A stretch of 64,000 nucleotides of DNA. It comes from Branchiostoma floridae (taxonomy: Eukaryota > Chordata > Leptocardii > Amphioxiformes > Branchiostomatidae). Shown one piece after another: positions 10,569 through 33,467 of the stretch (its first letter is position 1; every line of letters starts with the position of its first letter). The translations under genes were made by a program, and so were the position numbers. Below the pieces are notes generated by a model. It was not told the origin of the DNA, did no database searches, and was given only the letters and a program-made list of their open reading frames with translations. Where the stretch lies: contig NW_023365881.1 in the NCBI RefSeq assembly GCF_000003815.2, positions 262,551 through 326,550 on the forward strand, read 5' to 3'.

Positions 10569-10575
10569 ATGATTG

Positions 10576-11025: not shown

Positions 11026-11060
11026 CACTGGGGGAAAGGGTATCGGATGTAGCCATATTC
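11026..11060 (+). repeat. Left terminal inverted repeat of the giant transposon
   Basis: Starts CACTGG. Compared with the inward-reading right terminus (33,464 to 33,430), positions 1-4, 6, 9-12, 14, 22-27, 29, 31-33 and 35 match. It is imperfect but in register with no gap, which is consistent with an old copy. Confidence 0.72.
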
Positions 11061-11139
11061 GAGCAGGGATATTTGCGTATTTGTAACAAATGCTAGCGAA
11101 TGCAAACGGATTCGAGTTGGATCCCTAAAATATCCGAAA

Positions 11140-11800
11140 TTTGGTTTTTTTGCATCCGGAATGAAAAGACTCAAAAATATCCCAAAATGGGATTTTCCAC
11201 GGATGCGAAGTCGTTTTTTTAGGGATTTCTTTGGATACCTGGAATGATCGGATCGCAAAGAATCCCCAAACGGTATTTCCCTCGGATGCGAAGTCGTTTT
11301 TAAAAGAATTTCTTCGTATACCTGGAATGAACGGGTCCCAAAACGGCCTTTGCCACCTATGCGAAGTTGTTTTCATAGGAATTTCTTCGTATATTTGTCA
11401 TGGTCGGATCCTAAAGAATCCCAATACGGAATTTGCCGCGGATGCGAAGTCGTTTTCATAGGATTTTCTTCGTATATTTGTCATGGTCGGATCCTAAAGA
11501 ATCCCAATACGGAATTTGCCGCGGATGCGAAGTCGTTTTTATAGGATTTTCCTCGTATATTTGTCATGGTCGGATCCTAAAGAATCCCAATACGGAATTT
11601 GCCGCGGATGCGACGTCGTTTTTAGAGGATTTTCCTTGTATATTTGGCATGGTCGGATCCTAAGAAATTCCAATACGGCATTTGCCCCGGATGTGAAGTC
11701 GTTTTTTTTAGGAATTCGTCGTATTTTTGGAATAATCGGATCCTAATTAGTTTAAAAAAAACGGCTTTTGTTGCGGATACGAAATCGCGTCTTCGTTTAC
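11140..11800 (+). repeat. Left subterminal array, 83-bp unit, about eight copies
   Basis: A unit containing GGATGCGAAGTCGTTTT and GGTCGGATCCTAAAGAATCCC repeats every 83 bp. The GAAGTCG blocks lie near 11,205, 11,288, 11,360, 11,443, 11,526, 11,609, 11,693 and 11,780. Central copies are almost identical, while outer ones have diverged. The heptamer CGGATGC occurs in five copies in this orientation. The open frames crossing it simply follow the periodicity. Subterminal arrays bind TnpA in plant En/Spm; a binding role here is inference. Confidence 0.85.
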
Positions 11801-12150
11801 TTCACACATTCCTGAATATTAACGTTATTCTCACCTATACCTTCACCTCAGTAGGCAGATCCGACATGCCTACTGAGAAAATATTTATACTACTGTATGC
11901 CTATAAAATACATAGGAGTGAATGGATGTATGAATGATAAACCTTTATTCAAAACCAAATACTAAGTGATTGAAACTACAGAAAAGAACAAAAAGAGAAA
12001 ATACAATGTGATTGATGATATGATATACTACTTGTACAATCTAATGTATGTCACAGTATGTCACTTTGTTACCTACTCTAGCATTGTTGAACCTTTCGTT
12101 GTCTATACATTGCCACTGATGCAATTTAACTACATATAACATCATCTCAA

Positions 12151-15100
12151 TCAGCCACTAGCCTCTTCATTCTCCTCATTTTCAAATGGACGTATTCCAT
12201 CTTCCATTTCATACTCTCCGCCTACTGACCAGTCACTTCCCTCTGACACCTCACTTTCCTCTGAGTCTGACACCTCACTTTCCTCTGAGTCTGACACCTC
12301 ACTTTCCTCTGACACCTCACTTTCCTCCGATACCTCACTCTCTTCCTGTACCCCACTCACCCCACTCTCTCCCTGAACCCCACTCTCTCCCTGTACATCA
12401 CTCTCTTCCTGTACCCCACTCACCCCACTCTCTCCCTGAACCCCACTCTCTCCCTGTACATCATTCTCCTCCTGTGCCTCACCCCCCTGCCCAACGTCTA
12501 GGTATTCCTTCCCTACAAAGTGTATGTCTGGCACATCTCTTTTACTAGGCTCGGTAGAGCGAATCCTTTTGTATCTAGATTGGGGGTTCTTTCTGATCAC
12601 GGCTTCCACCCCTGGCTGGCATCTGTCAATGATATCGGTGAGTCGCTTTGCCCGCCAGGATGGACGCCTGACCACCCATGTTTTCTCCTGCTCTTCGTCC
12701 GTTTCCTCATCCGACATGAGGTCAGGCTTGGCGTCGCTCAGGTACTTCAGGGATGCTGGACTCAGGATGTCCTGGCCGACCTTGACCCTGAGCTCCTTCA
12801 TCTAAAAAAACAGAACAAATATGGTTTAGAACATTGGCATCAGAGTCATAGGCTTGGAATTGTGATAACCACAAAGTCCATCCAATCTGAGGACTATTAT
12901 CAAATAATTAGCTAGAGAAAATCTAACATTATGTTAACATTATGAGTAACACAAATACTTTGGGGGACATATATTATCTTACGTGTTAGCCAAATCTGTT
13001 TCAAGAATGAAGTCTCTAAGTGTAATAAATCGTTAGTTAGGAGTGGGGCTGGGTACTGGTTTGGCCAGACCTGTTTTTTACCAGAACCGATTCGCAAGTT
13101 AAAAAATTTCAAGAAATCTATTGTATTTAGACAATGTCACATCCCACTATTACTTTGGCCATGGAATTGGAAAATACCCATGAAACAAAGATGATTAGCC
13201 TACAATATATCAATATTCAATTCATTGTGTCGGTTCTAATTAAGTGAACAATAAAAATGCGCTACGAAAAAAAAACACATCAAATTTGCAAGACACAAGG
13301 TTGGTACGTGCTAAGTGGAAAGTTCCTCAACAATCCTCGTAAAATTTCACTCATAACGAAAAATCAGTGCTCAGAAAAAATAAGCCTGGGGGCAAACAAC
13401 ATTTCTTCTTTCTTGTGCATGTGTATTCAATCCATATTTCCGAGTTTGAGGCATATCTATGTCGTATTCAAAAAAAGAAACTTCAGCGACCAACGAAAAC
13501 AACAACAAGCAGTTATATGCATAGTGGATGAATTGCATGGTTGCTACAAGGCGTTGTTTGGAGTTTTCGTGTGAAGTGATTGGCTAACATTGTTATATTC
13601 TTGTGTGGTTTTGTGAGAAACCACGAGACTTGTCCGGCGATTCAAGATGGAGTTGTTGTTTTAATACGTCCGGCACAAAACCTTCTTTCTTTGGGCCACA
13701 TTTCTGCCACTTAAACTCAGCCAAATGGATTGTATACATGCTCACAAGAAGGAAAGAAATATTGTATGCCCCATGGTTAATTTTTCTGTTCACTGATTCT
13801 TGATTTAGATTGAAAATTTACGAAGATGATTGAGAAATTTTCCACTCGAGCTAAGTATGTACCAACCTCAGCCTCTGTGTATATTGACGGACAGGACCAG
13901 GTCCAGACCTGAAGTCAGAACCAAAACCTCTGGCCTGAACTGGACTTGAACCCGATCAAGCAAAAGGGTATCCACCCCTAGTCAGTAGTTAAGAATATTA
14001 AGATAACGCTTTTCCAGCTACATTATTCAATGATGGAGAGAGACGAAAATCCTTACCCTAGTCCGTCTGTTGACCCGCTTGGTCTTGTCATGTTGTTCCG
14101 CAGACGTCCCATCCCTCTCACTCTTCTCTGCCCGCCGTATGTTGTACTGTATGTTCCTGCATGCCCCTAAAAAGAGAGTATGAATTATAATCCATGATCA
14201 CATAGGAATATTCTAGTATGCATATTTTCATTCACCAATTTTCCATTTGTCTCTTGATATACATGTGTTTAGTCTTACACTGCATTATACTTCTTCAGCA
14301 GCTTTAAAACATGTCAAATATGCTTGTAAGACAACCAAGGAAGCATGTTCGAAGGAAGTGGAATGAATTAACCTAAATCAAGTGCTGAACATAAGGCAGT
14401 TTTTCTTTTTATCTGTGAAGATTCTAATTAACTGGTTTTACCAGACTGCGCCAGACTTACTTTTAGGAAACTAACTTTTGACAGACAACACCTGTGACTT
14501 ACTTCTTATGGCTCTGTCGGGGTATGGGACATCACCATCCTTGATGGCCTGAGTGATGCGCCTGGTCACCTCCTGGTTGTGTTGGCCTTCCATGAACCTT
14601 TAAAAATAAAGTGTATGTTAATCCTAAAAGCATCATAGAAGTCTTTGGCATAAGGTATGGCCTGTGGATCATCATTCAATGCATATCCCTGCGGTGAACA
14701 CCCACCGTGGTAGACCTACTTTGAACGTGTGCATTTTTTTCAAATCTTTTCATTACTGATATCTTGTTGAAATCCATATACATGCAAGCTTATTTTAATT
14801 ACAGTGTTGTGTCTGAGACACTTTTTTCACATGCTATTTGGAAGATCACAGCAATAATTTGTAATTCATAACCTTTCATAGCTAGTATGTCAAAGATTCT
14901 CTGTAAACAAGCATGGCATTTTTGCAATGCAATGAAGTGTAATATCATATTTTACTTACTTTTGATCCCCACGGTAGGTCATGTCCTCCCCCAGTGCCTT
15001 GTAGATTCGCTTTGCCTCACGCTGCAAAGATCCAATGAAACAAATTTAAGTCTTGCTATCACATTTCATACATACATGTTATCTTTCCAGCTTTAAAAGG

Positions 15101-18100
15101 CAAAGGCAATAAATAAAATTCCCTGAAATTACATTCATCCATCATAATATTGCTTGATATAATGATAATAATAATGATAATAATAACATATACATCTGCA
15201 TAAAAACACCTTTCTGATGTTATTGAACATCGAACCATCCCATCAAAAATCAAAGTTCTTGGTCCCTCTCATGCCACCAGGTATCAAGATTAAACAGTGA
15301 CTTAAGTTAATGGCTCATAATGTCATTAAGGTCATGAACTCCTTTCAGCGATGAAGGACAGTTTTTGGAATTGGAGGTCAAACTCTGTGTGCTTCACCTC
15401 GTGATGAAGATGAATGTCGCAGTGAACATGGCAGCCGAGCTGGAACTTTTGAACTTTTCAATAGCCCAGGTAAACAAATAAATTTAAAGGTGGCAAAATG
15501 GACAGCAAACATCATTCACAAAGATTTCAAAAAATTGTGGAAAGATTGACATAACAGGTGACTATCACCTTTTCAAGATGTCAACTCCGAACATTAATAA
15601 AGGACTGCGAAAGTTTCTGCATTTTTGGTACATCCCTAATCTAAGCTTGGTACTCATTTCCCCTTAGTGAAGTGAAGTGAAGAAAGTCGTGTTAAGTGCC
15701 TTTCCCAAGGGCACAAGGTTGTTGACATAGCAGGATCCGAACCTGGAACCACTTGGTCCTGAGCCAAACATTCTACTACAAACCTACCATTATATTATCT
15801 TTGATTGTATATAATCAGGATGAGAAATTGAACAATGTTTTTCACAAGCTGTAGTGACAGGTTCCAAGTAGGCTGCCATGTTCAATGTGACATCGTGAGA
15901 GCGTATAGTCACCATTTTTTTTTAATTACACCAATCTAATAACCTAGTGGGAAGATTCAAGAGCTGGAGGTATAATTTTGGATGGCTCAATAACATCAGA
16001 AATGTTTGTATTCCACATTGTATGTTCACTGAAAGACACTATTCTAATGTCACAGATACTAAGAAACTGTTGTAGTTTGGTGTAATATGCCTTTTAAATC
16101 TTAAATGATACCAGATTTAAAAGCTGACATTTTGAGGTTTTACTACAGATAAAACATTTGCCAAATACTAATCAGTTCAGGGACTGATTGGGCCTCCTCT
16201 CGGAGAGGCGTGACCTGAGTGAAAGGGTACAAAGAATACTTGACAAGAAGTACAAGTGTGTGTGAAGTATGAACAATGTAATAGATTTGACAAGCGAGCA
16301 AACTTACTACCAGTTCTTTAGAGGGTTTGGGGGTTCTGGGAGAAGGAGGGACGACTCGAGGGTGAGTCTGGTTCTGGTTCTGGTTCTGCTGAGTGAGCAT
16401 ATCCATTAGCTGTCTGGTACTCTCCCTGTTCTCCTCCTGACTGTCCTGGACATTTTTGGAGAGTGTCCTGACCTCTTTAGTTACCTGATGTAGAATCCTG
16501 GAAAACAGGCAGAGATCAACATAAAGATTGCATAGTCAGTCATACCATAGGCAATTAATATAGACAGAAGATAGGCATACAGGGCTCTAGCCAGCTAAAA
16601 ATTTATATCGGTCAGCCAGTTAATTCCTATTGTTTCGCAAACCGCGAAAAATTAACTGTTGATACTACAAAGTTTTTGAGAGAAAATAAGATGCCACGCG
16701 GACGTTTTGTAATCTAACTTTTATATGAACAACTTTTAAAGTCGAAACATGCGGGTCGTGTGCACGGGGAATCCCCGCGACCCCCAACAGTGCTCTTGGC
16801 AGTGCGACGGAATGAATTCATTCATAGAAGAAATGTAGGACATAAAAACAATAAGTATAACTTTGCTTTCGTTCTGATATGAGTTTTGAGGCCATAAAAT
16901 CTCCTGAGTGGCACAAATCTAGAAGATAAGCAACACTCTAAACTTGGCAGCAACAAACTCAACGGTTCAAACCGGATTTGAACCGGACAATTACGTCTTA
17001 ATACTGGCGACAAGGATATCCTCCTTACATTGTAAGAAAAATCTAACTACTAGTACAAGTAAGGTTTAGATCCGATGAAAGTTAATAGAATGCACTATTC
17101 CAGGGTTTGGAAGGACTGAACTGTGGTAGTAAATGTGACATTGATAAAATAGTCACTTTCTTTCCTCAAACAACCTCTGCTTGGGGTATGATGTATGCCC
17201 CAGGCACAGATGGGGAAGGCCTGACTTTACTGGCTATCTAGATCTAGTCCATTTCATGAATTTAAACTTTGACTTGAACTTTCAATTACTTTTTATCAGA
17301 ATTTGACCACTTAATTGAGGGGCATCGCTTTGCTGACCAGTTTATGAAAAACTCTGGCATTGACCTTGAGGGTCAAGCAGTTTGTCACAGTTTTTTTTAT
17401 CATTCAGCCAAGTGGACTGACTTGGCTACATGGATTTTTGAACCCAGGCATTTTTCAACTGTCACACTCATAGGGGTTACTGTAGTTTGTTATGTTTCGT
17501 GTGTGAAGAGGTGAAGGTTGTTTACCAGAAGATGCCTGGCGGAAATATCTTTTATCTATTACTTGAGAAGTCGACAGATCTCTAAACAACCTTACAGGAG
17601 AAAAATGAATGTATGTCTTGTGTGTTTTGTTGTCTTTTCAATCACACTTTTACATTCTGTCGGTGGTCGCAGCGTGTGGTATTTTACTTTGAAAGGAATG
17701 CACCGGAACGCGCGGGGGGGTGGGGGAGGAGAGGAGATGGCGCCCATAAACCCCCTAGTGTTTTACATATGGGGACAACACCAGAGCTATACCGACAAAG
17801 AAGGTTACGGCCACACATGTCTTTTGTCCTTTTGAAACAAGAAAACTATTATGCAAATTTTGTTTCGACTATTGTTTCGACTTTTGACAATTCACCTCGA
17901 TGCCTGGTACCAGTGGTGTAACGTTACACACAGAGCAGTCATTGTTGGATCAATTATCACCGGGTCTGCTCACCGCTTCACACCCTTTGTCTAGAACGTT
18001 TAGCAGGCAAACTTGATCAAAGGCAAGTTTGCAAAATAAAACAAACAATTCAATATTCATTTCATTCTGTTCGGCACGACTTGTGAAATAATTCATGCTT

Positions 18101-18847
18101 CTAAGGGTGAAAATACCAGAGTAGGGTTTTGAATAACCATCCACATGACGAGACTGAACAAATACATAATTCTTGTGAATTGGATCGGGTGAAAATGCAT
18201 AAAAGTGTAAATTTCGAGAAACAGCGCTTAGAACAAATTGAAGAAAGATGAAGAAAAAAACATGCACAAAAATATCTAACGTTACTCCCGACCGTAGTCT
18301 GAATGGCCTGATGCGTTTGTATAATCCACCTCCAAAGTTTTTCAATTATGATACATTTCAAGTTTAACAGTTCAAAAATCAAAGAAGAAAAAAAAGTTAT
18401 CTGACACCGCTACTAAAAATACTATAACGTTATAACTTACTTCCACATGTCGTCAATGGTCGGTTTACGGCCATGGTTGTCGTTCGGCTGGTCCCGCGGG
18501 CTTCTGCTGTTTCCAGGTAGCCTCGCCCCGTTCCCGATGCCTCTCCCCGCCCCGACCCCAGCGCCACGGCCCGGCGGTGTGTTGTCGGTCGGCTGGTCCC
18601 GCGGGCTTCTGCTGTTTCCAGGTAGCCTCGCCCCGTTCCCGATGCCTCTCCCCGCCCCGACCCCAGCGCCACGGCCCGGCGGTGTGTTGTCGGTCGGCTG
18701 GTCCCGCGGGCTTCTGCTGTTTCCATCCAGACCGTGCCGGTCTGATGGCGTCGTTCGTGCCATCTCCGCCCCGTTCAGAGCCGGAGCGCGCGGAGAGTTG
18801 TTCAGTGCGCCTTTACCTTTGCGGCCACTTTTCTTGGACTTTGGCAT
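12151..18847 (-). CDS. Transposon companion gene: 504-aa coiled-coil, basic and acidic protein, six exons
   Basis: Exons on the minus strand: 18,847-18,441, 16,497-16,308, 15,021-14,960, 14,597-14,503, 14,166-14,057 and 12,801-12,151. All junctions are GT-AG and the phases close exactly (1,515 nt). Residues 1-13 are Lys/Arg-rich (PKSKKSGRKGKG, a possible nuclear signal). Residues 43-112 are two exact 35-aa repeats plus part of a third. Residues about 130-175 form a likely coiled coil (MWKILHQVTKEVRTLSKNV). Residues 200-345 are a basic, conserved-looking domain with a LMSDEETDEE patch and a PSWRAKRL motif. The C-terminus is a Glu/Ser-rich repeat. The layout (MSDEE then W..RPSWR) faintly recalls vertebrate C14orf93-like proteins, but I do not recognise the family with confidence. 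It is head-to-head with the transposase. TnpA-like helper function is inference. Confidence 0.8.
15635..15785 (-). mobile_element. tRNA-derived SINE fragment in an intron
   Basis: The minus strand reads GGTTCCAGGTTCGGATCCTG, a tRNA B-box-like motif. It is followed by CCTTGTGCCCTTGGGAAAGG and CACTTAACACGACTTTC, a sequence I associate with SINEs of marine invertebrates. The A box and the 5' end are not clear. It lies in intron 2 of the companion gene. Confidence 0.55.
18486..18725 (-). repeat. 105-bp in-frame tandem repeat in exon 1 of the companion gene
   Basis: The string GGCTGGTCCCGCGGGCTTC starts at 18,486, 18,591 and 18,696, exactly 105 bp apart. Two full units and part of a third are essentially identical. 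Each unit encodes 35 residues rich in Gly, Arg and Pro. Because 105 is a multiple of three, copy number can change without breaking the frame. Confidence 0.9.
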
Positions 18848-19220
18848 TGCTGAGTTGGTCTGTTATGAACCACAAGAACCTGAAATTCTGGAGAAATGCA
18901 GTCGGGAGATCACGGCCGAGTGGTGACTCTGCAGGCTCGCCTCTGCAATGATTATTTTCCCAGGGAATTGGACCAGACCCCTGGGGCTTAGTGTTGCAGT
19001 ATTCGAGTAGAGCAGAGTTCTGATTGGTCATCGGAAAGATGACAGCAGAGCAGATGTGAATCAAAGTAGTTTACCGACAGTTCTTGTACATGTGCTAAAT
19101 AGTTGGAATCCACCGGGCCATTCAAATTGATATTTGCTGTGAAATGTCACAGGGCTTAGAGCGTAGTCTGTCTAGTCAGTTCTTGTCCAGTGGTTCGTGT
19201 GGTTGTGGAGGTTTATAGAC
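18848..19220. promoter_or_regulatory. Shared bidirectional promoter region of the transposon genes
   Basis: Only 373 bp separate the two divergent ATGs (18,847 minus and 19,221 plus). The interval has a CCAAT box on the minus strand (ATTGG at about 19,022) and a second ATTGG near 18,966; the adjoining exon 1 is GC-rich. No clear TATA box was seen. Head-to-head spacing this short implies joint control of both genes; this is inferred, not shown. Confidence 0.55.
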
Positions 19221-22200
19221 ATGCCCAGGCGAAAGGGACAAGCTGGAAGCGAGTACGACAGAAATCGTTGGTGCGCGCATTGTAGCGACCTCATCCCAAA
19301 ATCGACATACTACGACCATGTCAGAAGGTATGGGGATGATGCCTGTGGGAACGGCGATCAGCCTTGCACAAAGAGGGTAAGTACCTTGGCTGAAAACACT
19401 CTCTTTATTTTCTTTACAAAATTTGACTGCCACATAGATAACAGTTAATACAGCTGCGTGAGTATTGTCTAAATGATTGTGAAACATCTCCTCGCTCCCT
19501 AATCTCCAAGCAGATCCTACGGTGCCATAAGATAGTATCAAAGCTGGCCAAGGAGTGTAGCCGGCCAAAGGAAGTCAAACGGTGGGTTTGATACTAATAT
19601 TACGCCACAGTAGGTCTGCTTGGAGATTAGACCCCCCCCCCCCCAACCGGACTAATACCCCATAGACTCGAGATTTCTTAGCCAGAACTAGCAGAAGGAC
19701 CATCTTGTGTCCAGGCTTCGAGGATCACTGGATACTAGCATAAATTGGACAAATAGAAAGAATAGTTTGATAGAGGAGCCGGCCAGCCAGAAAGGATTAC
19801 TAGTATGTATGCGAGGACGCATGTATTTATTGCCTGCATATGCAAATAATAATCAATAGGCTTTAAAATCCTTGGACTTACCAAGTGCTCTTATAATTTG
19901 GGGATGGATTTGCTTTGATTTTATAGTATGAATTTAATGGAATTTTTTTCCATTTAACAGTTGACAATCTCACAATGATGATGATGATGGTAATAAATCT
20001 CACAGTACATCAGTATGGAGCTGCAGAAATATGTATTGATGCTGTATTGATATGTTATACTTAGTAATGGGCAGAAGTCAAATACTTGAAATGTACTGGT
20101 CATGCTGTATGTAATATAAATGTATGTGACATTGTGTGTCTTCTCCTTTCTTTACAGCAAAAGTTAGCTGGAGCAACAGTTGAAGTATCTCAGGACTTGA
20201 TGTCAGGTGACCCCAGCCTATCCTCAGAGTCAGATGTGGATGACACAAGCACCCCCCAAGTGATGTCAGAACTGAGAAAGGTAATTTTGATCTCCTTTAG
20301 ACCCCATTCACACTAACAACGAGTGGATTAAACAACAATCTGGGTTAAAATTTGCAATCCGATTGAAAAAAATGCCTTCACACTAATTTTTAGACAGTCT
20401 AATTATCAATTGCCAACACTCCAAGCCATTTCTGCTCCTCTTGTTGTGGCTTAATTGGAAATTTACATTAAAATCATATCTTCCTGAAAGGGAGGTCACA
20501 TGATGGTGATCTCATGGTCACCTCCAGTTGCTTTGTCTAGTCACTGATAAAAGCTCCTTGGTCTAGTGTTTGTGAATTTTTTTTCAGATATTTGATATTA
20601 GCACTAGGTGTTCTATGAAGGCAGCCAACCCTATAAATTTGACCACTGGGTGCAAAATTTTTTTCTTGATTCTCACCGACTGCTTTGCTTCTTGCCGCGA
20701 GTAGCTCATTCCCGGCATATTCAAATCTTAGCATAGACCTGTGCAATACCTTTGGCTTGTATCAATTTGGTTTTAAACTTTGCCAGACCTTCTTCAAAGT
20801 GCGCATGGCATCTTTTACACTAAACTTGCATAGACACCATTGTCATTCATGCATAATTTATCACCCCTGTGTGCTTCTGCCCTACCTAATGTCTCCTTCT
20901 TTTATTCTCAACTGCTGTGAAATGCCCTATTATCTTTGCGAATCTACCCTTGCAAGGTGAAACTTGCCCCTATCTGTGAAATAGTTGCCTCTGTTCATTT
21001 TGTGGGAAATTTTACAGATTGTCAACTGTTGTTTCTGCAGTGGTCCCTATTTTGCATCCAAATCTGTTGGTTTAGGCAACAGTGTCCTTTCCCAAATCTG
21101 TTGGGAAAAAAAATGTTGTGTTTCCTCGAGGAGCTTTTATCAAAAGCTCCTTGGTTTCCTGTTTCAGTCCGTGAAAAAATTAGGTGTCGGTAGGTAGGGA
21201 TTATCTTTTTTTTTTCTTGAATTTTTTTTTAGGCTGGCCAAAATTCTAGTGATACATATTACAATACAGTTGAACAAAGTAAACTGAAATGTATGATGAC
21301 ACTTGTCTTTCAATGTCAAACTTTAATTTTGTGCATGATAGATACATTTATCCTTCATTAGATGGGACAAGCAGTGTTTTACTTCAATAGGAAGCAGGCC
21401 AAATAAAAATTCTAACTGGAAGCTATGTGACTCCACTGCCCACCCAAAAAAAAGTCTAGGGTCGGCAGTTTTTTTTAGGGTAGGTAGGGAAACAGGAAAC
21501 ACAACATTTTTTTTCCTAGGCCTTATGTTTCCAAAATTGACTAGCTCCCGACAGCAGACTTCCACTCCCTCTATCCCTTCCTTGATAATTTTGAATAAGC
21601 GCTCATCCCCTCAAAATAAGAAAGAGGGCGATATAAGAAATAACCTGGGTGTGCTAAAGAATTTGTAAATTACTTACAGTGCATCTAAAGCAGTGGAAGA
21701 CGAAACAGATTTTATTTCCAAGTGTTCTTTTAACCTCACTGAAAGAACCACATTGTTTAAAGAAATCACAATTATATTCCCCAGCTTCCCTACATTTACG
21801 GACAAACAAAAAGCAACTTTCCTCTTAAAATTAATCAGATCCTATGGTAGCACAAGATAGCATAAAAAGCTGGCAGACGAGTGAAGCCGGCTTAGGAGTA
21901 TGTTTTGCTACATGGCAAATGTACACCTCTTATTAGCTGACTACACTAGTTGGCCAGTTTGGTACTATCTTATGCCATTGTAGGATCTGCTGGGAGATTA
22001 CTTAAAATCACAAAACCCACAAATTATAGAAAAAGTGTGACTTGTCTTCCTTAAAAAAAGACATCAAACCCAACCTATCTTGATCAACACTTTAGCATTC
22101 CAGTAGTCCCTTTGTATACTAATATTTACCAAAGTCCATTGTTACATTCATATTCCCTTTATAGTATATGATCTTGTTTGTACCATGTTCTTGCACTGAT

Positions 22201-25200
22201 TAGCCTATGGGCATGAACTTGCAACTAAACTTTCAATGTGTTTTTTCCTACCACTGTAGCAGTCACACCTTCCTGATAAAGTGGCGAACTCTGATGCACA
22301 AGACTGCAGTACTAGTAGTCAACAGGACATGGAAACAGAGGACAATGGACAAGCAACAGATGGGTCTTCTGGGAACTCTGACTCTGAGTCAGACTGTGAG
22401 GTAATTCCAATATCAGCTTGTCTGATTTTGTTTGGAACATCTAATTCTAAGTTACGCGTTTGTGAGAAGGGGGAGGTTGTCAGAGGGATTTCAAGCGTTT
22501 TTTGCCAAGATGCCAGACTGTTTTCAGGGCTCACACAGACAGCCCAGGCTTTAGAGCCCATATGATCCCCAGAATGGATTTTAGATTAGAAGTGTCACTA
22601 GTTGATGACCCCTGTTTCACTGAATGTCCATTTTGTTATTGTTTACCATTCAGTATCATTATCATCATTGTACTTCATTCATGTATCTTTGCAATTAGCC
22701 TTCGGGTATCGATGATTTTGCAATAAAGAATATTATTTTTACCTATATAGTCAGTGTAACACAAACTCTGCTGTCCGGGGCTGTAACTGGCCCCTCCACG
22801 CGGAGGCTGGCAGTTGTGGGCAGGCTGCTATAAGCGAGATTAAATCAGGCTAATTTTTACCCCAGACTCAGAATTCAGGTTGGCTGCCAACTCTTGTGGG
22901 GGGAGGATAGTAACTATCATAATTCTACTATCATAATTCCACCAAGTGCCATAATACCGTCACCTCAAAAAACGTTAGTATAGAGGTCTTCCCAAGATTG
23001 TCTTGAACACTAAATGTTAAATATCCTAAATGTAATACAATTCAAATATTTAGGTGTTGAAGACAATCTTGAGAAGGCCTCTATAACAACGTTTTTTTGA
23101 GGTGGCGGTATAATGGCACCTGGTGGAATTATGCAAATGTATGTTACCTACAGTCAGTATTTTGAAGCTCACCCTATCTAGGTGGGGGATCATAGCACCT
23201 TGTATAATCTGTAGACTCAGGCTGCTCAATTTCAGTAGAACTATACGGTATTAGCCAGAGATGATCTGTCAAGATTTCCATGGAAGAGAAAAATGGATGG
23301 TGTCACAGAATTAAATTTCATTGAATCTAGTTAACCCTCCAGTACTAGTGTTAACTCTGAACGTCATATCAGAATCTGGGATGTGGAGACTTTTTTAAAG
23401 TGGATAAAGAAATTCTGATCCAAATCAAAATGTTTAACTCAATAACTGTAACTAACTTTGTTTTATTTTTTGGGGGGTGTGATCAAAGGGGTCTAACTTC
23501 TAACATGGTAAGGACATGAAGAGTAGAGGTTTTCCAGAAAACAAGAACACAGATCTTCTGATAAATGTAGTAGCATAAAAAAAAATATAACTGCAATGCA
23601 TTTATCATAACTGCCCTGAGTGTATCTTGGAATGTTCAAATCTGCAGGAAGGATATCTTTTCTTTGACAGATAAAGAAATACTAGATTACTGAATTAAAG
23701 AACTGTCATAATGAGTTGACTGACAAAATTGATTTGTCTGCCTCGATACAAGGCTGGAAATACTTGTATCAATGTATGTAACGTTATACACTTTTGTGTT
23801 CCCCAAATTTGAGCTGTGCACCTAATCTTCGAGATATTGTGTAAAATGTATAATGTTATATGTATGTAGGGCCATGTATGGTAAAGGTACCATTGATTTG
23901 TACGCTAGTGTACAGCATGCTGTTGACATTTAGATTTGTCAGAAAAAATGCTAAAATCTTTGTTGTAATACCGAGTTTGAAATTACTCAAGTTGTATTCC
24001 AGCTTTTCGGGTGATGTTTANNNNNNNNNNNNNNNNNNNNNNNNNNNNNNNNNNNNNNNNNNNNNNNNNNNNNNNNNNNNNNNNNNNNNNNNNNNNNNNN
24101 NNNNNNNNNNNNNNNNNNNNTGTTATATGTATGTAGGGCATGTATGGAAGGTACCATTGATTTGTACGCTAGTGTACAGCATGCTGTTGACATTTAGATT
24201 TGTCAGAAAAAATGCTAAAATCTTTGTTGTAATACCGAGTTTGAAATTACTCAAGTTGTATTCCAGCTTTTCAGGTGATGTTTTACTTTTGTGCAACCAG
24301 AATGTTTTTGAGCACCTAAAAAATTTTACAACTCAAACTTCTGACTGTCTAGAATTTGAAGTTAAGGCTTCTTTGTATCCATTTAAAGCCTGCCACAGGT
24401 ATTTTGCAATGCAAAAGGTGCTAATTTCTACTGGCTGAGCTTAGGAGACGAGAAGAAGTTAGATCAAACAACTGAACTGATACTAGTGATTAACAAGTCT
24501 GCCACACAGGCAGGTGTGGAAATTAGCACAAATAATTTTCAAAGAAAGATACAAGGAATGTAAGTTTTGACAATAAACAGAGCTTAAAAATTGTAAGAAT
24601 TTCTAAGCTTTCATTAAAATCATTCCTGAAAATGAATTGTGCCCTGAGATGCTAACTGTCTTTTTAGCTGATATAATCAATTTATTTAAACAATGTATTT
24701 TTTCTTCTTTGGTTTGTTGTGGCAAAGTGGAGCAGAGCCCCAAGCTCAATCAATGATTGTTTACAATGGCAGTCATTTGTACTAACTACAAGCAGAAGTA
24801 TTGGGCTGCTTTACACAAATGGCAAAACAAATGACTTGTCCTAAAAATGTCTTTCAGCACGCTGTGCTTTTTTGTCCGCATAAAAAGATCTCCTGAGGTG
24901 CCACACTGCAGCGTGCCGCAGCACGTCATTTTGGTTTTTACGCTTGCCTTTTCTGTAGTAAGGGACTTCTGGCCGGCTGACTCCCCTAGTGTACTATGAC
25001 TCTATTTGTACAATTTCTACAGGTCACCGATATACAAAGCCTGGTAGAGACTAGGCAAAAGTCTGTACTACCTAACTTTAAAAGTCTGTTTTACTTGAGG
25101 AGTATTGTTCTACTTGACTACGAGGGTAGTTTAAAATTTGAAAAATCTCAGCGTAGAAAGGTTGGATGGAAATTAAGTTCTTGTATACAATTTATTTTCT

Positions 25201-27860
25201 TTTCACAGAAAGAGGACAAAGAGGATACTGAAATATGGAGTGATGCTGAGATGGAAGAAGATACGCTGGACTTTCGACGTGGCACAGACATGGAGGACAT
25301 CAATGATGCAGGCCAAACAGAATCAAACACGTTTATGCCTCTAATCTGTTTATTGTTGCTACTGCTAGCCAAGTGGAAGTCAGTTTTCACAATATCAGAT
25401 TCAGCTGTAGAGGTACTTTTGAAGATTATTGGGAGTATTTTGATGGCCATAGGAACGACACTGTGTATGGAAACTCTGAAGAGCATTGCTTTGGCTATAC
25501 CAAGAACCATATATATGTTTAGAAAGAAACTAGGTCTGGATAGAAATGATTTTGATCGCTATGTTGTCTGCCCTGTTTGTGATTCTGTGTATCCAGTTGA
25601 GGATGCAGTAGTAACTATTCGTGATGGCAACGGTAGAATTGTAAGAAAAAAATCAGCTAAATGTTCTCATGTTGAGTTTCCTAGGCATAAGCAGAGAAAG
25701 TTTCGAAAGCCATGTGGAACCATTTTGATGAAGACTGTCCTTGGTAAACATCAAAAAGAATTCCTATATCCCAAACGTACATTCTGTTATCGCAGTGTAG
25801 TAAAGTCCCTTGAGGACATGTTGCAGAGGCCAGACTTTATTGAGGCCTGTGAAGCATGGAGAAATAGAAGTACACAACATGGAACTTACACAGATGTGTT
25901 TGATGGTCAAATCTGGAAAGACTTCCAAGTGGTCGATGGTGAACCATTTCTTGCTGAGCCATGTAACTTGGCTCTTATGTTAAATGTAGACTGGTTTCAG
26001 CCTTACAAGAACATCAAAGAGTCCATTGGCATTATGTATTTGTCTGTAATGAATCTCCCAAGAGAACAAAGGTTTAAAGAGGAAAATATCATTGTGGTTG
26101 GAATCATTCCAGGTCCACATGAACCCAAACTACACATCAATGGTTTTCTCGAGCCTTTAGTAGAGGAGCTACAAAAGCTTTGGAAAGGTCTATGGCTGCA
26201 TGATAGCTCTTTGGTCAAAAAGCAACGTTACCGTGCTGCTCTGTTATGCCTTGCCTGTGACATCCCTGCAGCCAGAAAAGTTGCAGGTTTTTATGGCCAC
26301 ATGGCAACGAAAGGATGTAGTAAGTGTCTGAAGTCATTCACTAGAGATTGTAATAATCGTGTAGATTATTCTGGGTTTGAAGAGGAGTTTCCTCTCAGAA
26401 GTCACCAGGACCACTGCAGGTATGCTAAAAGGGCAAAAAGAGCAAAAAATAGAGCAGCAAGGGAAAGAATTGAAAAAGAGTATGGTGCTAGATATAGCTC
26501 CTTGCATGACCTTCAGTACTTTAATGTTATTAATATGCACATTGTGGATGTTATGCATAACTTATTGGAGGGTACAGCAAAACGGGTTATGCAAGTGTGG
26601 AGAGATACTGGGGTGCTGTCAAAGGAACAGTTCTGCACACTGCAGGCTCGAGTTGATGAAATGACAGTACCCAGCAACATTGACTCCAGCATACCCGCAA
26701 AGATAGAATCGTCTTTTGAAGGATTTACAGCAGCCCAATGGAAATCCTGGGTTTGCATTTATTCGTTGTTTGCATTGAAAGGAGTAATACCTGAGGAAGA
26801 TTATAATATCTGGAGGTTGTTTGTATCTGCTACAAGACTTCTGTGCTCTAGGATTATAACAGAAGACCAACTTAATGATGCCCATCGCTGTCTGAAAATG
26901 TTCTGCAATGCGTTTGAAGGAAAATATGGAAAAGAATGGTGCACTCCTAACATGCATTTGCACCTCCATTTAAGGGCATGTATTCAAGATTTTGGGCCTG
27001 TTCATGCATTCTGGTGCTTTTCCTTCGAACGTGCTAATGGATCCCTTGGCGACTATCATTCCAACAATCGACACACTGAAATAAATATGATGAGAAAATG
27101 GCTTATAGACTGGAAAGTTGCTTCCAAGCAGAACGAAGGATCAGATTATGATGTAGATTTTGCCTCATTTTTCGATAAACCTGTTTCAAATAAGTCCATC
27201 TTAACTGCAGAGCAGGTAAACATGTTGAAAGAATTAGCCCAGAATGATGATCTACAGCACAACAATTTTGAAGTAAATGATCAGTGCGAATCTATGTTAC
27301 CACCAGTCAAGAGAAGCAGTATGTCAGTAGAGGAGAATGAGGCACTATTAGCCATGTTTCAGGTACTTTATCCCCATGAAGTTGTTAGGGTTTCTCTGAT
27401 CCACAATTACTGTGACAGATACTTGTTAGGAGGTTTTCTACTGTGTCCATCTGAATATAGAAAAGGATCCTCTTCATGTATAGATGCAAAATGGTTTAAC
27501 CATAGACAGATAACTGGTGAACCTATTATCGACCCCAGTGCTTCCCCCAGACCAGGTCGCATTTCTAAGATATGGAAAGTTTTTGTGTTCTTGAAGGCAG
27601 AAGAAACAGAACGAAAGATTGAACACACAGTGGCAGAAGTCAGGTGGTTCAAGGTACATGGGAAACGGTACTTCTATGGGATGAATAGTTCCTGTACAGT
27701 TTGGGAGGAAAGCTATGAACCCTGGTCCTATGCTTCCTTCCTTCCCATGAAAAGGATTTTGAATCAGTGTGCTTTCTGCACATATAAGGTGCCATTCAAC
27801 AACAGATGGGAAGAAACTGTCAATGTTGTCTCAACTTTAACGTCAGTAAGGTGTGTATAA
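19221..27860 (+). CDS. tnp2/Transposase_21-type transposase, 1,023 aa, four exons
   Basis: Exons 19,221-19,376, 20,158-20,280, 22,260-22,400 and 25,209-27,860, each a whole number of codons (all introns phase 0) with GT-AG ends. Residues 1-52 hold a CAHC...H pattern (WCAHCSDLIPKSTYYDH), a possible N-terminal zinc-binding module. Residues 53-170 are acidic and Ser-rich. A CPVC motif at 261-264 and a later CSH...CG pair suggest a second zinc knot. The core has NVDWFQPY (D401), ACDIPAARK (D491) and VMHNLLEG (E594), a candidate DDE triad of the tnp2 (EnSpm/CACTA) family, followed by a MHLHLHLRACIQDFGP block. The catalytic assignment is by family resemblance. No internal stop was found, so the protein may be intact. 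ATG 19,221 is the first in a frame leading to a good donor. Confidence 0.85.
19500..19629. mobile_element. Foldback MITE (TAATCTCCAAGCAGATCC family) in transposase intron 1
   Basis: It begins TAATCTCCAAGCAGATCC and ends GGTCTGCTTGGAGATTA, with complementary arms. The interior has a paired TAAGATAGTATCAAA and TTTGATACTAATATTA. Related copies are at 21,831-22,000 and 57,043-57,159. Confidence 0.72.
20530..21565. repeat. Possible inverted-repeat element in transposase intron 2
   Basis: AAAAGCTCCTTGG occurs near 20,548 and 21,140. A block around 21,100-21,210 (AAAATGTTGTGTTTCC, GGTAGGTAGGGA) is complementary to one at 21,435-21,520 (GGTAGGTAGGGAAAC, GGAAACACAACATT). This suggests a foldback element or two nested ones. 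The borders could not be placed. Confidence 0.35.
21831..22000. mobile_element. Foldback MITE (same family) in transposase intron 2
   Basis: The left arm TTAATCAGATCCTATGGT pairs with the right arm ending AGGATCTGCTGGGAGATTA. It is more diverged than the intron 1 copy and has a longer centre with GCTGGCAGACGAGTGAAGCC. Confidence 0.6.
22933..23132. mobile_element. Palindromic MITE (CCATAATACCGYCAC family), copy 1
   Basis: A near-complete inverted repeat of 200 bp with arms of about 95 bp. The left arm starts ATAATTCCACCAAGTGCC, the right ends GGCACCTGGTGGAATTAT. It lies in transposase intron 3. Shared inner motifs (CCGYCACCTC; CTTGAGAAGGCCTCTATAA) link it to the copy at 27,887-28,050. Confidence 0.75.
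23859..24280. other. Gap with likely false duplication on both sides
   Basis: About 160 bp left of the gap (from 23,859) and 160 bp right of it (from 24,121) are the same sequence, differing by a few single-base indels (GGGCCATGTATGGTAAAGG against GGGCATGTATGGAAGG). The gap of 100 Ns spans 24,021-24,120. This is what two overlapping contigs that failed to merge look like. It sits in transposase intron 3 and does not touch coding sequence. Confidence 0.75.
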
Positions 27861-27886
27861 TCTCGCACAAATAATTGTTACTGTTG

Positions 27887-28050
27887 AACTAGATGCCATA
27901 ATACCGCCACATGAGAAATACATGAAAGAGATGTATACAGCAAATGCACCATCAGTAATCCTGAGCCACGTACACTTCAGATATTTAGCTGTCTTGAGAA
28001 GGCCTCTATAATGTGTTTTTGATGTGGCGGTATTATGACATCAGGAGTTG
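27887..28050. mobile_element. Palindromic MITE (CCATAATACCGYCAC family), copy 2
   Basis: The left arm AACTAGATGCCATAATACCG pairs with the right arm ending CGGTATTATGACATCAGGAGTT. It starts 26 bp after the transposase stop codon, so it may lie in the 3' UTR. Confidence 0.7.
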
Positions 28051-29404
28051 ATGAAAAGGTATCCCTTAATGACTTTATCTGTCTGCTAAAACACACATTG
28101 ATATTCAATGAAAGGTATCATTGATGATGATATGCTACATGTACTTAGGATAGTACAATAGGGAGCAAATACCTTTGTTGTAACAAAGTGAAATGTAAAT
28201 GTAGCAATAAATGTGTCCTGATATGATCCCCCAGATGTTCATTTTTTTAGTTACATGATAATTTATATATGCATACATTCAATGATACTAGGTCTCTCCC
28301 AGTGAAGTGGCATGTTGATAGCACAATGTGTTAGCATTGATAGTCAGGAGTTTTACCTAGAATAAATATGCAGCACTGCAATGTTGTTTTTTTGTTGGGG
28401 TATATTTGGTAGTTGCATACAGAGTGGTGTACAGAAATTATAAGTGAACATACATGTGTCTAGTTCATGTAGCTATATATTTACCTTGTCTGGGGGTGAT
28501 CCAGATATGTTATTAAATATGTAAATATGCTAATATTGCTGAAACTTGACTTTTGCACATTATGTTTCTTAAATTGTTTCCTCACCAGTTTGTATCTGTT
28601 AGCACCTGTGTACCAGAGAGATGGGAATAAAATTTGTTACTTTTGTATAACATGACAGTTCTGCATGTGTTGTATTTCTGGTTTTATCGTGGTCCATATA
28701 AATGAGATAGTCAATAATTTTGTGGTAACAAACTTTTTAAATACAACAATAAATAAATCTATAGTTGTAAAGTTTGAGCTTGATCTGAGACTTTCTGTCA
28801 ATCATTGTAACATGAAATCTGGTCACGATCATGTGGTGAGACCCATTTATCAGCTCGCCTGGTTACAAGTACAGAGTCTGCCATGCTATAGTCTCTAATC
28901 TCTCCCACCCTGGAAACAGCTTGTCCCGCTGCCAAACACAGCACGCGGGTCATATTATAAGCTCTGGGTGCCAATAGAAATCGGGTGCCAACTCTCAACT
29001 TGTGACCATCTCGGGCGAAAGGGCTATACTTAAGTGTGAAAGGGCCATAGTTTAGAGCAAGGGTCTGGTATCCAGGCTATTTATCAGCATATATTATCTG
29101 GAGGTGCTAAACTGTCAAACAATATGAGGTCTGGTGATTTTTTTTTGCGATAAAGCATATTGCAGTAACCTGGATGAAGCTAACAACTAAGAACTCCAGC
29201 TATGCTACTGAACCCAAGAAATCCAACCTACAGAAGCATTTTCAAAGAAAAGAAGATAAATTTTCCGTGACTAAGTGTGGGAATTTTCTCGGCTACTGTA
29301 GTAATCGACTTTTAGTTTCCTTGTCAAACAGTAGTAGTAAAACCTAAATTTGAAAATCAGCATATCAGAGCTAAGCTAGCAGTATGAATGCCAGCTATCA
29401 TCCA
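28051..29404. other. Transposon interior, no gene seen
   Basis: AT-rich sequence between the converging transposase and RFX/DBF4-like genes. Several AATAAA sites are present (for example near 28,208 and 28,626), suitable as poly(A) signals for the transposase mRNA. No coding signal seen. Confidence 0.5.
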
Positions 29405-31668
29405 TTATTCCACAGCCTGGGGAGAACCCTGCTGGCACAGACTTGAAAGCCATGCACTTAATGGCTTTTCATTAATATGCTCATCTAATGTTTTATAGTT
29501 ATCCTGATTAGTAACAAATGCACGGTGTTTTTCAGAGTTTAGATGAAATGTGAGGTCATAGTACTGTTCATTGCAACACTCACAGTAGGATGGACATTTT
29601 CTTGTGACGGTATTTCCTGTCTTCTTGCACGTGGACCTGTTGGGATTTTTGTCATTACCATGAAGGAAAGACAACGATGTACATGTGCTCCATTCCCTAT
29701 TCGTGAACTCTTTATATAATGGCCTATACTTCCCTGACAAATCTTCAACCTTTACGAATGGTGACTTGAGTGTTCTTGTCTGTGGATTTGGCAGTTTGCT
29801 TTCTGCTGGCCTAGGTGGCCCACTGTTCGATAGTATGGAGATATCAAGTAAGGATGTGTCGAATAACTGTTTCCCAGAGTTGCGCAGTTTGTCAAAATCT
29901 ATCTGAGGAGTTAGAGATGCAAGTATACCCTTTCTATCAAAAGCAATACATGTCGTGTTGGTATCTAAAAACATAACATTTGCTCCACCCTTAGAAAGTA
30001 TGAACTTCTGCAAGGCAGCAGCTTTCCCTTTAGCCATTCCAACTTCATAAATAAGAACTTTTTCATTGCTTAAGCATGTGTTATCATCCAATATGTTTAT
30101 ACCGCTGGTGGATGTCCCATGTCCTTGCTCAGATGAAGTCTGTTCACAGTCAGTGGATGCATCGACAAATGGTGGCAGGTGTGCTTGAGATGATGACTCA
30201 CTGGATACTGATTACCTGCAGTCTGCATTGAAGCTCTTACATGGAGTAGGAATATCCTCCACATCTGTGCATTGTTTGATGGTAATATCAGAAATGTCTT
30301 TGCTCTTGCTAGGTTTATGCAAAAACTTCAAGCCAACATAGTGGGTAATACGTTTACTGCCCAGGCGACGTTTCTTGAACTGTCCATGAAAGTGATGGTG
30401 AAGAATTTTGGCAAAAGTGTTTGGTTCAATGCCAGTGCCTGTAGAACTGCGAGTTTCACTGAGAAATCCATGAATGCAGTCCTTCAGCTGTAGACCACAT
30501 GTCACATCACTTGTTGTGGAGATGTTGTCTTGGATCCTAAAAAAGCAGAACATTCCTTATAAGAAGAGCATACCATGCTTGCAGATGAATTTGTGGAGTA
30601 AAATGAGGTTTTAGTAGATGTTTAAACATTATCTCATATAATAAACAGCACAAATCTTATGACTTTTCTGTCACTTCCCATTTCTTAAGGTGGTAGCCCT
30701 ATATATATTTCAAGGTACACCCTAGCATATAGTGATAAATATGACAAATACTATAATATTACTCTAGTAATCAGAATCAGGGTAAGCCCTACCCTGGGGG
30801 CCATCCGAGATCGAGCAGGCTAGGACAGTTTATTCGGTAGCCCAAGACAATTAGGTCCGCCGAGCTCCTAATAGCACCCCGGCCCCGGGGAGTTTAAGCC
30901 CGATTAGGGGTAACGATAACCCCCGGAGCGCTAATGTGATGTCGGCGGGCTGACTGCCTTGGCTCCCCGAACAAATCTCGCGAACAAATCTGCTAGCTAC
31001 TCGGTTCTGTCTGACTCCCAGGGTAGGTAAGCCCCAGGCCTGAGCATATTATTAAGTTTCCCCCAGTAGATAGAAGGGCCAGGGCAGCCTGAATATCCAG
31101 TCGGCGGCAGTGCTCAAGGTGGCCGAAGAAGCAAGTCCGAAGCTTCGGGAGATTAGCGCGGCCTGCCTGCCGGTGGCCTGGCTAAGTTCCTTCGGCTTCC
31201 ATGGCCGCCAGTATAATAACAGTTTATTCTCATGCACTGTGGCCCATATAGACGGACAAATGTATATGTATAAATCATATCTTGAATTGTGGGGTGTCCC
31301 TTCAAGCGGGGGTGTTGGGTTTCCCGCTGTAGGAGGCCCCGAGCGCAAAACTACCGAGTGCCATGGTCGGACCCGGCGGGCGGCGCACAACAACAGCCCT
31401 GAGAGGACCACCCAATACAGTCGGTAAACTGGTTACTGTAGCTTGACGGCAATTAAGCTCATTCTAGGGTAAAAAGACCACCACTGAAAAGACGTCGACT
31501 CGACGACTCGAGCAAAGCGTCTGAAACAAGACTAATTATTATAAATAATATAGCGAGCACAGACACACATTGCATGTAGAGATTGAATATCTAATGTTAA
31601 CCGCACAAAAATAAATCGATCGCTCCTTACCACTTTAGGCACTGTCGGTTGACAGAGTTGGAAAACAT
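29405..31668 (-). CDS. RFX-type winged-helix plus DBF4-type zinc-finger protein, with one in-frame stop
   Basis: Exon 1 is 31,668-31,631 (MFSNSVNRQCLK and two bases of Trp13); donor GTAAGG. Exon 2 is 30,536-29,405; acceptor CTTTTTTAG. The junction completes W13, giving W-IQDN, as in RFX domains (W-LLDN). Residues about 11-84 match the RFX DNA-binding pattern: INxFAKILHHHF then KKRRLGSKRITHYVGL. After a TAA at codon 121 (30,214-30,212) the same frame stays open to residue 389. The stretch from about 172 to 230 could be a BRCT-like region. PFVKVEDLSGKYRPLYKEF (from 272) matches DBF4 motif M, and C331-x2-C334-x9-H344-x5-H350 matches the DBF4-type zinc finger (motif C). DBF4 activates Cdc7 kinase at replication origins; the role here is unknown. 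The TAA may be a recent nonsense change, a sequencing error or readthrough. Confidence 0.75.
30778..31045. mobile_element. Possible MITE in the RFX/DBF4-like intron
   Basis: GGTAAGCCCTACCCTGGGGG near 30,782 is complementary to CTCCCAGGGTAGGTAAGCCC near 31,017. The interior is GC-rich and unlike its surroundings. Borders are approximate. Confidence 0.45.
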
Positions 31669-31746
31669 GATGACTGCACCAAAGTTTCCCGGAAACTTCG
31701 CAATAAATCGTCTCTCCTGAAGTGCGACTGGACCCCTAGCGCCGTT

Positions 31747-32460
31747 GGCAAGTTTAGCTGACCACTTCCAGTGCCGAAAATCTTTACATACTCTTTGCTC
31801 GCCTTGGGCGTCGCGGACACACGTAAAATACGCAGGGATGCTGCATGTTGTGAGTGCGCCTTCTAGCGGCGTTCATAATTTCTACAACAACCAACACATC
31901 AGCTGTACATTACCCAGAAGGCATCTCTCCACTGGACGACACCACGGATGCAAAGAAAACCAAATTCGTATATTTAACGTATCCCAATATTACTAGTACC
32001 CATTGGCAAGTTTAGCTGACCACTTCCAGTGCCGGAAATCTTAACATACTAGTACTCTTTGCTCACCTTGGCCGCCGCGGACACATGTAACACACACACG
32101 GAAGGAACTAATTATTTCACTTTGTCTTCTCGCTACCAAACTTTGACGGTCTGAGAAAATTTAACCTGTTCTCGGAACTAGATGTTCAATGTCGCGGCAA
32201 AAAAGCTTAAGTCTGTGATTTATTTGTTATCAGCAATGAAGTTCAATGTTACAGTCGTCACCGTGAAAATCGTGAACATAACAGCACATTAAAAAAAACA
32301 GTATTTTGCTACATGTTGTGCGTGCGCCGTCTAGCGGCGTTCAAAATTTCTACAATCACCAACACACCAGTTGTAGATTACCCAAAAAGCATCTCTCCTA
32401 TGGAGGACACCACGGATGCAAAAAAAAACCAATTTGAATATCTAAGATATCCCACGATGA
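31747..32460. repeat. Direct duplication upstream of the RFX/DBF4-like gene
   Basis: Block a (31,747-31,830, GGCAAGTTTAGCTGACCACT) recurs at 32,006-32,090. Block b (31,843-31,985, from CATGTTGTGAGTGCGCC through GACACCACGGATGCAAA) recurs at 32,313-32,460. The order a-b-a-b shows a tandem duplication of about 260-470 bp covering the gene's upstream region, with later indels. Confidence 0.75.
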
Positions 32461-32558
32461 CCTACGAGGCACTAAAAGCCAGAAAAACAAACAAACACTT
32501 GTCTCGGATCCCAAAGATTACAACGCTACCACAGTGGCATCCGATGGAACTGTTATGA
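32400..32558 (+). CDS. Possible small ORF or exon, 52 aa (doubtful)
   Basis: ATG at 32,400 opens a 52-residue frame (MEDTTDAKKNQFEYLRYP...) ending at TGA 32,558. The upstream duplicate near 31,937 keeps a similar reading (DDTTDAKKTKFVYLTYP) with in-frame substitutions, a weak sign of coding. An open stretch at 32,750-32,978 ends exactly at a donor-like GTAAGT, but the same GTAAGTA string belongs to the right-end repeat. It could be a divergent small gene opposite the RFX/DBF4-like gene, or chance. Confidence 0.25.
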   Translation: MEDTTDAKKNQFEYLRYPTMTYEALKARKTNKHLSRIPKITTLPQWHPMELL

Positions 32559-32629
32559 AAAGAGAAATAATAAACTTTGAATATGGAAGACCCATGGAAT
32601 GATACGACAAGTAATATGTTTGGCATTTT

Positions 32630-33440
32630 TTGGTATCCATGCCGCTTCCGTTCGGAGGTTGCAAATTCGTATTCTTGGAATTCGGCTGCATCCGAGGCGT
32701 TTTGCGGGTGCGAAAAAAAAGCAGATGTGGATGTTCAAGGCATACCAAGATTGTCATAGGGCATTGCTGCAATGGTGTGGATCCAATGGATGCACCAGAA
32801 AAATACAAAACATCCTTACGAATTCCAGTGTATCGTGAAATGTCACACTTACATGGACACAGCACACTGTGGTATGCGATGTATAAAAAACAAGGAATGA
32901 TACGCCCACATCAGTACAAGCAACATTTTGCTGATAACCAAGAGTCCTCACCACGTATTCTTTCGTTTATGTTAGAAGTAAGTACCCATACGAATATGTT
33001 TGAATCTGTAGGTGATTTAAGGATACCAACGAATGCGTCGCGAATGTGTTTGGGATCCGTTAGCATCCGCCAGGATGTTGCAAATTCGTATTCTTGGTAT
33101 CCGTCTGCATCTGAAGACTTTTCGTTGTAAACAAGAATCCTGACCACGTATTCTTTAGTTTACTCTAAAAGTAAGTATCCATACGAATACAATGTTTGAA
33201 TCCGTTAGTGGCTTACAGATACTAACGAATCCGTGATTATAAGTAAGTATCCATACGAATGCCGTGTTAGCATCCGTTTGTATCCTCCGAGAGTTACGGA
33301 TACCAACGAATGCGTTGCGGATGAAAGTGGGATCCGTCATTTTTTGGGATCCGTGATGGTTTTGGGGATCCGTCAGCATTTGTCAGCATACGTCAGCATC
33401 CGTCAGGTGTTGCAAATTGGAATCCGTCAGCATACGTCTA
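32630..33440. repeat. Right subterminal repeat region
   Basis: Irregular repeats, unlike the regular 83-bp left array. GTTGCAAATT occurs at 32,658, 33,077 and 33,409. AAGTAAGTATCCATACGAAT-like units occur near 32,978, 33,171 and 33,242. GGATCCGT repeats many times at 33,050-33,440. GCATCCG, the reverse complement of the left-end heptamer, occurs at 32,688, 33,063, 33,270 and 33,396. Opposite orientation at the two ends is what a CACTA subterminal region should show. Confidence 0.75.
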
Positions 33441-33464
33441 CATATTCGGTCTTTTCGTCTAGTG

Positions 33465-33467
33465 CCT
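33465..33467. repeat. Right 3-bp target-site duplication (CCT)
   Basis: CCT follows the terminal CTAGTG directly and is in frame as the proline codon shared with 11,023-11,025. Confidence 0.82.

Follow-up and report, generated by a model that had tools for sequence, protein, structure and literature searches.

A CACTA-type transposon lineage of amphioxus that carries a gene of the DBF4 type

What kind of DNA can break a reading frame in two without costing it a single base, and what would such DNA do with a gene that resembles a regulator of DNA replication? Both questions arise from a 64,000-nucleotide stretch of the Branchiostoma floridae genome (C323:262551-326550, hereafter the window), in which a reading frame of a long interspersed nuclear element (LINE) halts after CCT (11025) and picks up at GCA (33468) with zero bases lost. 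The DNA in between is almost certainly a DNA transposon of the CACTA (EnSpm) class, presumably of the cut-and-paste kind, and its third gene is, with near certainty, a homologue of DBF4, the regulatory subunit of the kinase Cdc7 (Dbf4-dependent kinase, DDK). Using sequence searches of the 513-Mb assembly (431 contigs), we propose with moderate confidence that a CACTA lineage acquired a DBF4-like subunit, which would probably engage host Cdc7 and couple transposition to S phase. The features that delimit the element in the window are the following.

11026 to 33464, plus strand: whole CACTA element, copy A1 of family A (ends, target-site duplication, empty site and a near-identical copy at C9:16211793-16233884)
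11023 to 11025, no strand: left copy of the target-site duplication, CCT (read directly; the empty site agrees)
33465 to 33467, no strand: right copy of the target-site duplication, CCT (read directly)
11026 to 11040, plus strand: 5' terminus CACTGGGGGAAAGGG, an imperfect terminal inverted repeat (9 of the first 13 bases match the 3' end)
11180 to 11750, plus strand: 5' subterminal array of ~83-bp repeats (repeat family D1, six copies that overlap; both ends of the element are enriched in GGATCC)
31742 to 33464, plus strand: 3' subterminal repeats and 3' terminus CTTTTCGTCTAGTG (read directly; repeat and GGATCC counts)
10573 to 11025, plus strand: 5' half of the interrupted LINE frame (empty-site matches; no Pfam match of its own)
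33468 to 33980, plus strand: 3' half of the interrupted LINE frame (RVT_1, Pfam E 4.9e-15; empty-site matches)
24021 to 24120, no strand: assembly gap of 100 N; the 136-bp stretches to either side of it, 23884-24019 and 24148-24283, are nearly identical

At the left junction (11023-11040) CCT is followed directly by CACTGGGGGAAAGGG, and at the right junction (33451-33467) CTTTTCGTCTAGTG is followed directly by CCT, the outermost bases of the element being CACTGG from 11026 and CTAGTG to 33464. A first-pass annotation of the window had claimed inverted CACT ends (CACTGG and CACTAG), CCT on both sides and a LINE frame interrupted without a missing base, and the reading of both termini, of both flanks and of the frame itself bears this out, as does the single CCT at empty LINE sites. 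The motif GGATCC occurs six times in the first 1.3 kb, four times in the middle and six times in the last 1.3 kb of the window element.

The empty site was sought with a 418-nt query, in which the two LINE flanks were joined with a single CCT, giving 20 rows in the genome. Seven places match all 418 bases at 96-98%, and four of these, checked base by base, are gapless at the junction; two further places at 97% (query 40-418 and 125-418) and five divergent LINE places (65-78%) also cross it, while two rows are the window's own LINE halves. The remaining four rows belong to C10:522074-522520 and C17:225344-225755, LINE copies with 82-83% identity in their left part, where the match ends at query 224 and restarts at 267 with ~125 bases between, so that this LINE subfamily differs at the junction. 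The annotation had proposed aligning other LINE copies here and had held that a different sequence at the junction would speak against an insertion; the closest copies are continuous, but the two 82-83% copies do differ.

Further copies of family A were collected by searching with each end. The first 300 bases gave 40 places among the best 40 of 67 candidates scored (39 besides the window, 96-100% identity), and the last 300 bases gave 40 places among the best 40 of 69, window included (77-100% identity). Pairing these ends by eye yielded 26 other copies, besides a near-full copy on C9, and both ends were read in 20 of them. An exact 3-bp target-site duplication is present in 17 of the 20, where chance, at 1 in 64, would give ~0.3, and absent in three (C18, C9:18.06 and C10:17.9); the first six bases are CACTGG in 18 of the 20 and CACAGG and AGCTGG in the other two. 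Loci with both termini and 3-bp duplications, which the annotation had suggested looking for, thus exist. The near-full copy, A2 (C9:16211793-16233884, 22,092 bp), differs from the window copy by ~0.8% (176 mismatches over ~22.8 kb, two out-of-register repeat rows of nine having been dropped) and has no exact 3-bp duplication at its ends (AATGC and ATGGG). Both 136-bp stretches beside the assembly gap at 24.0 kb (99% identical) align to one stretch of A2, and the pair is probably one stretch assembled twice; because the gap sits between them, the internal length of the window element is inexact. Many shorter copies carry family A ends; the one compared in full, on C8 (3152 bp), matches the window element only over roughly 515 bases at its start and 450 at its end, and a truncated family A copy is present on C15.

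Two related families were found with the same three genes in identical order and orientations, namely a DUF4616-type gene upstream on the opposite strand (gene 1), the tnp2 transposase (gene 2) and, downstream and convergent, the DBF4-like gene (gene 3). Family B lies at C17:5344764-5368546 (23,783 bp, exact duplication GTA/GTA) and recurs nearly unchanged on C235, where the flanking DNA is different and one of the ends is degraded; family C lies at C9:864157-897720 (33,564 bp including 1,072 N, exact duplication AAG/AAG). Their terminal inverted repeats are near-perfect, with 12 and 13 of the first 13 bases matching. The tnp2 genes of the three families share 65-69% identity (401-877 codons compared; family A against family B, 68% of amino acids), and the gene 3 proteins, with open frames of 378-394 amino acids, 36-47%. 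The large gene-rich CACTA lineage supposed in the annotation is therefore found again in A2 and in families B and C, and the exon cores of its three predicted spliced genes are upheld by conservation across families. The annotation had been unable to match two of these genes to a known CACTA gene; both can be named, as a DUF4616-type gene and as a DBF4 homologue. The latter relationship, the surprising part, had been missed, and emerges from the zf-DBF and Protein Data Bank (PDB) profile matches to the following parts of gene 3.

29405 to 30544, minus strand: DBF4-like exon of gene 3 (zf-DBF match; conserved in families B and C)
29471 to 29593, minus strand: predicted DBF zinc finger, motif C (PF07535, E 3.9e-14; PDB profile match)
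29702 to 29809, minus strand: predicted DBF4 motif M (SPFVKVEDLSGKYRP...; PDB profile match; shuffle test against host DBF4)
30323 to 30538, minus strand: N-terminal domain, candidate RFX-like winged helix (weak profile matches; conserved in families B and C)

The zf-DBF profile (PF07535) scores above its cut-off in six element copies, and a genome-wide search with it returned ten rows: these six copies, the host DBF4 gene outside the elements (~C15:12305550-12307725), one place on C10 (two rows) and one weak row on C6. When a profile built from the gene 3 proteins of the three families was run against 177,635 PDB sequences, the only three matches at E<=1 were all DBF4, human DBF4 (4f99_B) at E 5.1e-16 over motifs M and C and the yeast protein at 2.5e-8 and 2.6e-8. 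Against host DBF4, the score of motifs M and C beats 2000 of 2000 shuffles in each of the three families. Motif M is kept in all three, and the residues invariant among them include the Cys and His of the finger, which we take to be zinc ligands. Gene 3 thus resembles DBF4 in having motif M and the DBF zinc finger in order, and differs from it in being encoded by a transposon, in a motif M that is not split by an intron, in the absence of a recognisable motif N and in an extra, weakly RFX-like N-terminal domain. The C10 place (C10:10427475-10429262), a second zf-DBF match consisting of two places 1.7 kb apart, probably marks a further host gene that contains a DBF finger.

What such a protein might do can be considered from its relatives. 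In DBF4, motifs C and M contact both lobes of CDC7, N and C, and the activity of the kinase requires the two motifs together (PMC7416108, in part); motif N, a BRCT domain, docks DDK on MCM through Mcm2 (PMC8927117, in part). It is likely that the gene 3 protein binds Cdc7. By what is known of CACTA elements, the transposase would bind the subterminal repeats, possibly with help from the DUF4616-type protein, cut both ends and insert the element at a 3-bp staggered target, and short copies would be moved in trans. Motifs M and C of gene 3 would bind and activate the host kinase, the winged-helix-like N-terminal domain may tether it to DNA, perhaps to the element, and transposition could thereby be coupled to S phase, so that a copy made after fork passage moves into unreplicated DNA with a net gain. 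For Ac/Ds, transposition from replicated to unreplicated DNA raises copy number (PMC5371812, in part); the main text of that paper names neither Dbf4 nor DDK. That replication coupling is the purpose of gene 3 is possible, and on balance doubtful. More tentative, and rather unlikely, is the full version of the idea, in which the transposon carries a DNA-tethered activator of the origin kinase that recruits Cdc7, fires or advances a local origin and has the element replicated before it jumps, leading to net multiplication.

Several observations weigh against the proposed engagement of Cdc7 and S phase. In the window copy, one in-frame stop (30212-30214) splits the gene 3 exon; A2 has no stop and 383 open amino acids. 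The Pfam family for motif M, Dfp1_Him1_M, matches gene 3 at E 0.026, below its cut-off, and a comparison of families B and C shows weaker constraint on gene 3 than on tnp2 (dN, the nonsynonymous divergence, 0.43 vs 0.22). The genome-wide zf-DBF search gave no match at the more distant tnp2 loci, and such elements can therefore exist without a DBF4-like gene. At motif N, shuffles reach the score against host DBF4 in 1000, 187 and 3 of 2000 cases in the three families (z -0.1, 1.6 and 4.9), and the PDB profile search for a BRCT domain in gene 3 gave 24 chance-level matches, none of them BRCT. As for the N-terminal domain, the RFX Pfam profile reaches E 0.036 in family A and 0.17 in family B, both below cut-off, with no match in family C; a PDB search places RFX1 at a weak E of 0.081, and a single-sequence PDB search with this region found no RFX. 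A one-on-one hhalign comparison with RFX gave E 3.5e-4 and a probability of 37% (control region, E 0.55 and 0.1%), and we describe the domain as weakly RFX winged-helix-like. Single-sequence AlphaFold models of the window's main gene 3 exon and of the N-terminal domain came out at a predicted local distance difference test (pLDDT) of 32 and 48, which is low confidence, and were left unused as evidence.

The pairing of clear motifs M and C with an unrecognisable motif N raises an alternative, in which the gene 3 protein is a decoy that binds Cdc7 through M and C and has no working MCM-docking motif; Cdc7 would then be titrated and origin firing slowed, leaving more time or repair capacity during excision. 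However, families B and C have diverged little in the region at the place of motif N (dN 0.24), which must for that reason be used for something, and we consider both the decoy and its supposed effect unlikely.

The extra N-terminal domain fused to gene 3 would also suit another reading, in which the DBF finger and the parts beside it now serve as an accessory factor that binds DNA or the transposase, and the Cdc7 role has been lost. Motif M is nonetheless kept in all three families, and its known role is the contact with Cdc7 (PMC7416108, in part), which makes this reading quite improbable.

A further possibility is that gene 3 is a functionless fragment of a host gene that was passively captured. 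Plant CACTA and Mutator elements carry captured host gene fragments, and motifs M and C of gene 3 lie in one exon, as in a captured cDNA, whereas motif M of host DBF4 is apparently split by an intron. Against this, the gene keeps its position and strand across three families despite protein identities of only 36-47%, its frames are open over 378-394 amino acids, and selection acts on it. Gene 3 is evidently under purifying selection: comparing families B and C gives a ratio of nonsynonymous to synonymous divergence (dN/dS) of 0.33 (0.21-0.44 by bootstrap, with none of 300 replicates at >=1), and of 0.29 in the N-terminal domain and 0.74 in the linker; only B and C were compared, because dS is saturated between A and either of them. 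Passive capture is accordingly already disfavoured and very improbable. That an assembly chimera, suggested by the gap inside the element, or a host gene adjoining the transposon could account for gene 3 is practically negligible, given that the DBF4-like gene lies inside elements bounded by target-site duplications at unlinked places and that host DBF4 lies elsewhere.

The other two genes of the element are represented in the window by the following parts.

12151 to 12801, minus strand: last exon of gene 1, with an acidic repeat-rich tail and a DUF4616-like motif (related exon in families B and C; acceptor TTTTTTTAG immediately preceding)
14048 to 14164, minus strand: conserved core of an upstream exon of gene 1 (weak colinear tblastn matches in families B and C, E 0.045 and 0.017)
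14504 to 14581, minus strand: conserved core of a further upstream exon of gene 1 (E 3e-4 and 0.024; GTAAGT just after)
19260 to 19346, plus strand: short zinc-finger-like exon core (WCxHC...YYxH), conserved upstream of tnp2 in families B and C
24990 to 27860, plus strand: main tnp2 exon of gene 2, Transposase_21, 956 amino acids open (PF02992, 75.1 bits, cut-off 28.6)

The zinc-finger-like exon lies ~6 kb upstream of tnp2 on the same strand and probably encodes the N-terminal DNA-binding part of the transposase. For tnp2 itself, dN is 0.22 and dS 1.9 when family B is compared with family C, and in A2 the tnp2 match is divided between two frames. A tnp2 search of the genome, with the best 48 of 97 candidates scored, also revealed loci at C5:3600940, C15:16590477 and C1:31132935 with 43-51% tnp2 identity. 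At the C5 locus, a search for terminal inverted repeats within 10 kb found two weak pairs, neither with a target-site duplication. Eighteen of the 48 rows fall in C6:21.59-27.80 Mb, near the end of a 28-Mb contig, and 14 of these carry stops; this region reads as a graveyard of old CACTA copies.

Gene 1 is classed by its profile matches as a DUF4616-type gene: the window exon scores 20.2 bits against PF15394, below the 27-bit cut-off, and the joined exon pieces of families B and C score 36.3 and 29.1 bits, above it. A genome search for DUF4616 gave 33 rows. At three of nine distant tnp2 loci (at least 400 amino acids matched, among the best 48 candidates), a DUF4616 match adjoins tnp2 on the opposite strand (C5:3604128-3604900, C15:16593069-16593881 and C1:31128540-31129352), as in our element but without a zf-DBF match. 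None was found within 100 kb at the other six (C16, C6, C19, C5:21.35 Mb, C13 and C292), and for many of the DUF4616 rows none of those 48 tnp2 rows lies nearby. Because of the three distant loci, gene 1 can be regarded as a recurrent partner gene; the DUF4616 family looks like a CACTA partner protein, and by analogy we infer a TnpA-like role for gene 1. A literature search on DUF4616 found no paper. Vertebrate members of the family, such as C14orf93, might have been domesticated from CACTA elements.

Around the element, long open frames with tandem C2H2 zinc fingers, all of the same type (7740-9470, 40429-41940, 45123-46955, 50580-52616 and 55217-56947), form a local cluster of genes. The minus strand at 35217-37127 holds another LINE reverse-transcriptase-like frame, named by eye and different from the interrupted one, which runs into an assembly gap; further 100-N gaps are at 906-1005 and 37004-37103.

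Plant CACTA/EnSpm elements (En/Spm, with TnpD and TnpA) have CACTA/CACTG ends, 3-bp target-site duplications, subterminal repeats and tnp2 with a second gene. The amphioxus element shares all of these, and the hallmarks claimed in the first-pass annotation (CACTG/CACTA-type ends, 3-bp duplication, subterminal repeats and a Transposase_21 tnp2) were all found; since every CACTA feature that could be tested is present, the class itself is already known. The amphioxus element differs from the plant ones in its animal host, in its DBF4-type third gene and in its second gene, which is of the DUF4616 family. SmTRC1 and other animal TRC elements likewise encode a Transposase_21 protein, but those of them whose ends are known begin with CCC and carry 2-bp repeats, unlike the CACTG/CACTA ends and 3-bp duplications described here, and no DBF4-like gene is named for them in the parts of PMC1636069 consulted. 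In our literature search, no paper among the matches listed concerned a DBF4-type gene in a transposon or this element, of which a Repbase entry may exist.

It has long been asked how cut-and-paste transposons take advantage of host replication; for Ac/Ds the answer is methylation sensing (PMC5371812, in part). A transposon-encoded relative of the DDK activator would link a transposon directly, and testably, to origin firing. Given the association of DUF4616 with tnp2, further members of this Pfam family may have their origin in CACTA elements. In amphioxus, a cell cycle gene of host type appears to have been acquired by a transposon and retained by selection over three families.

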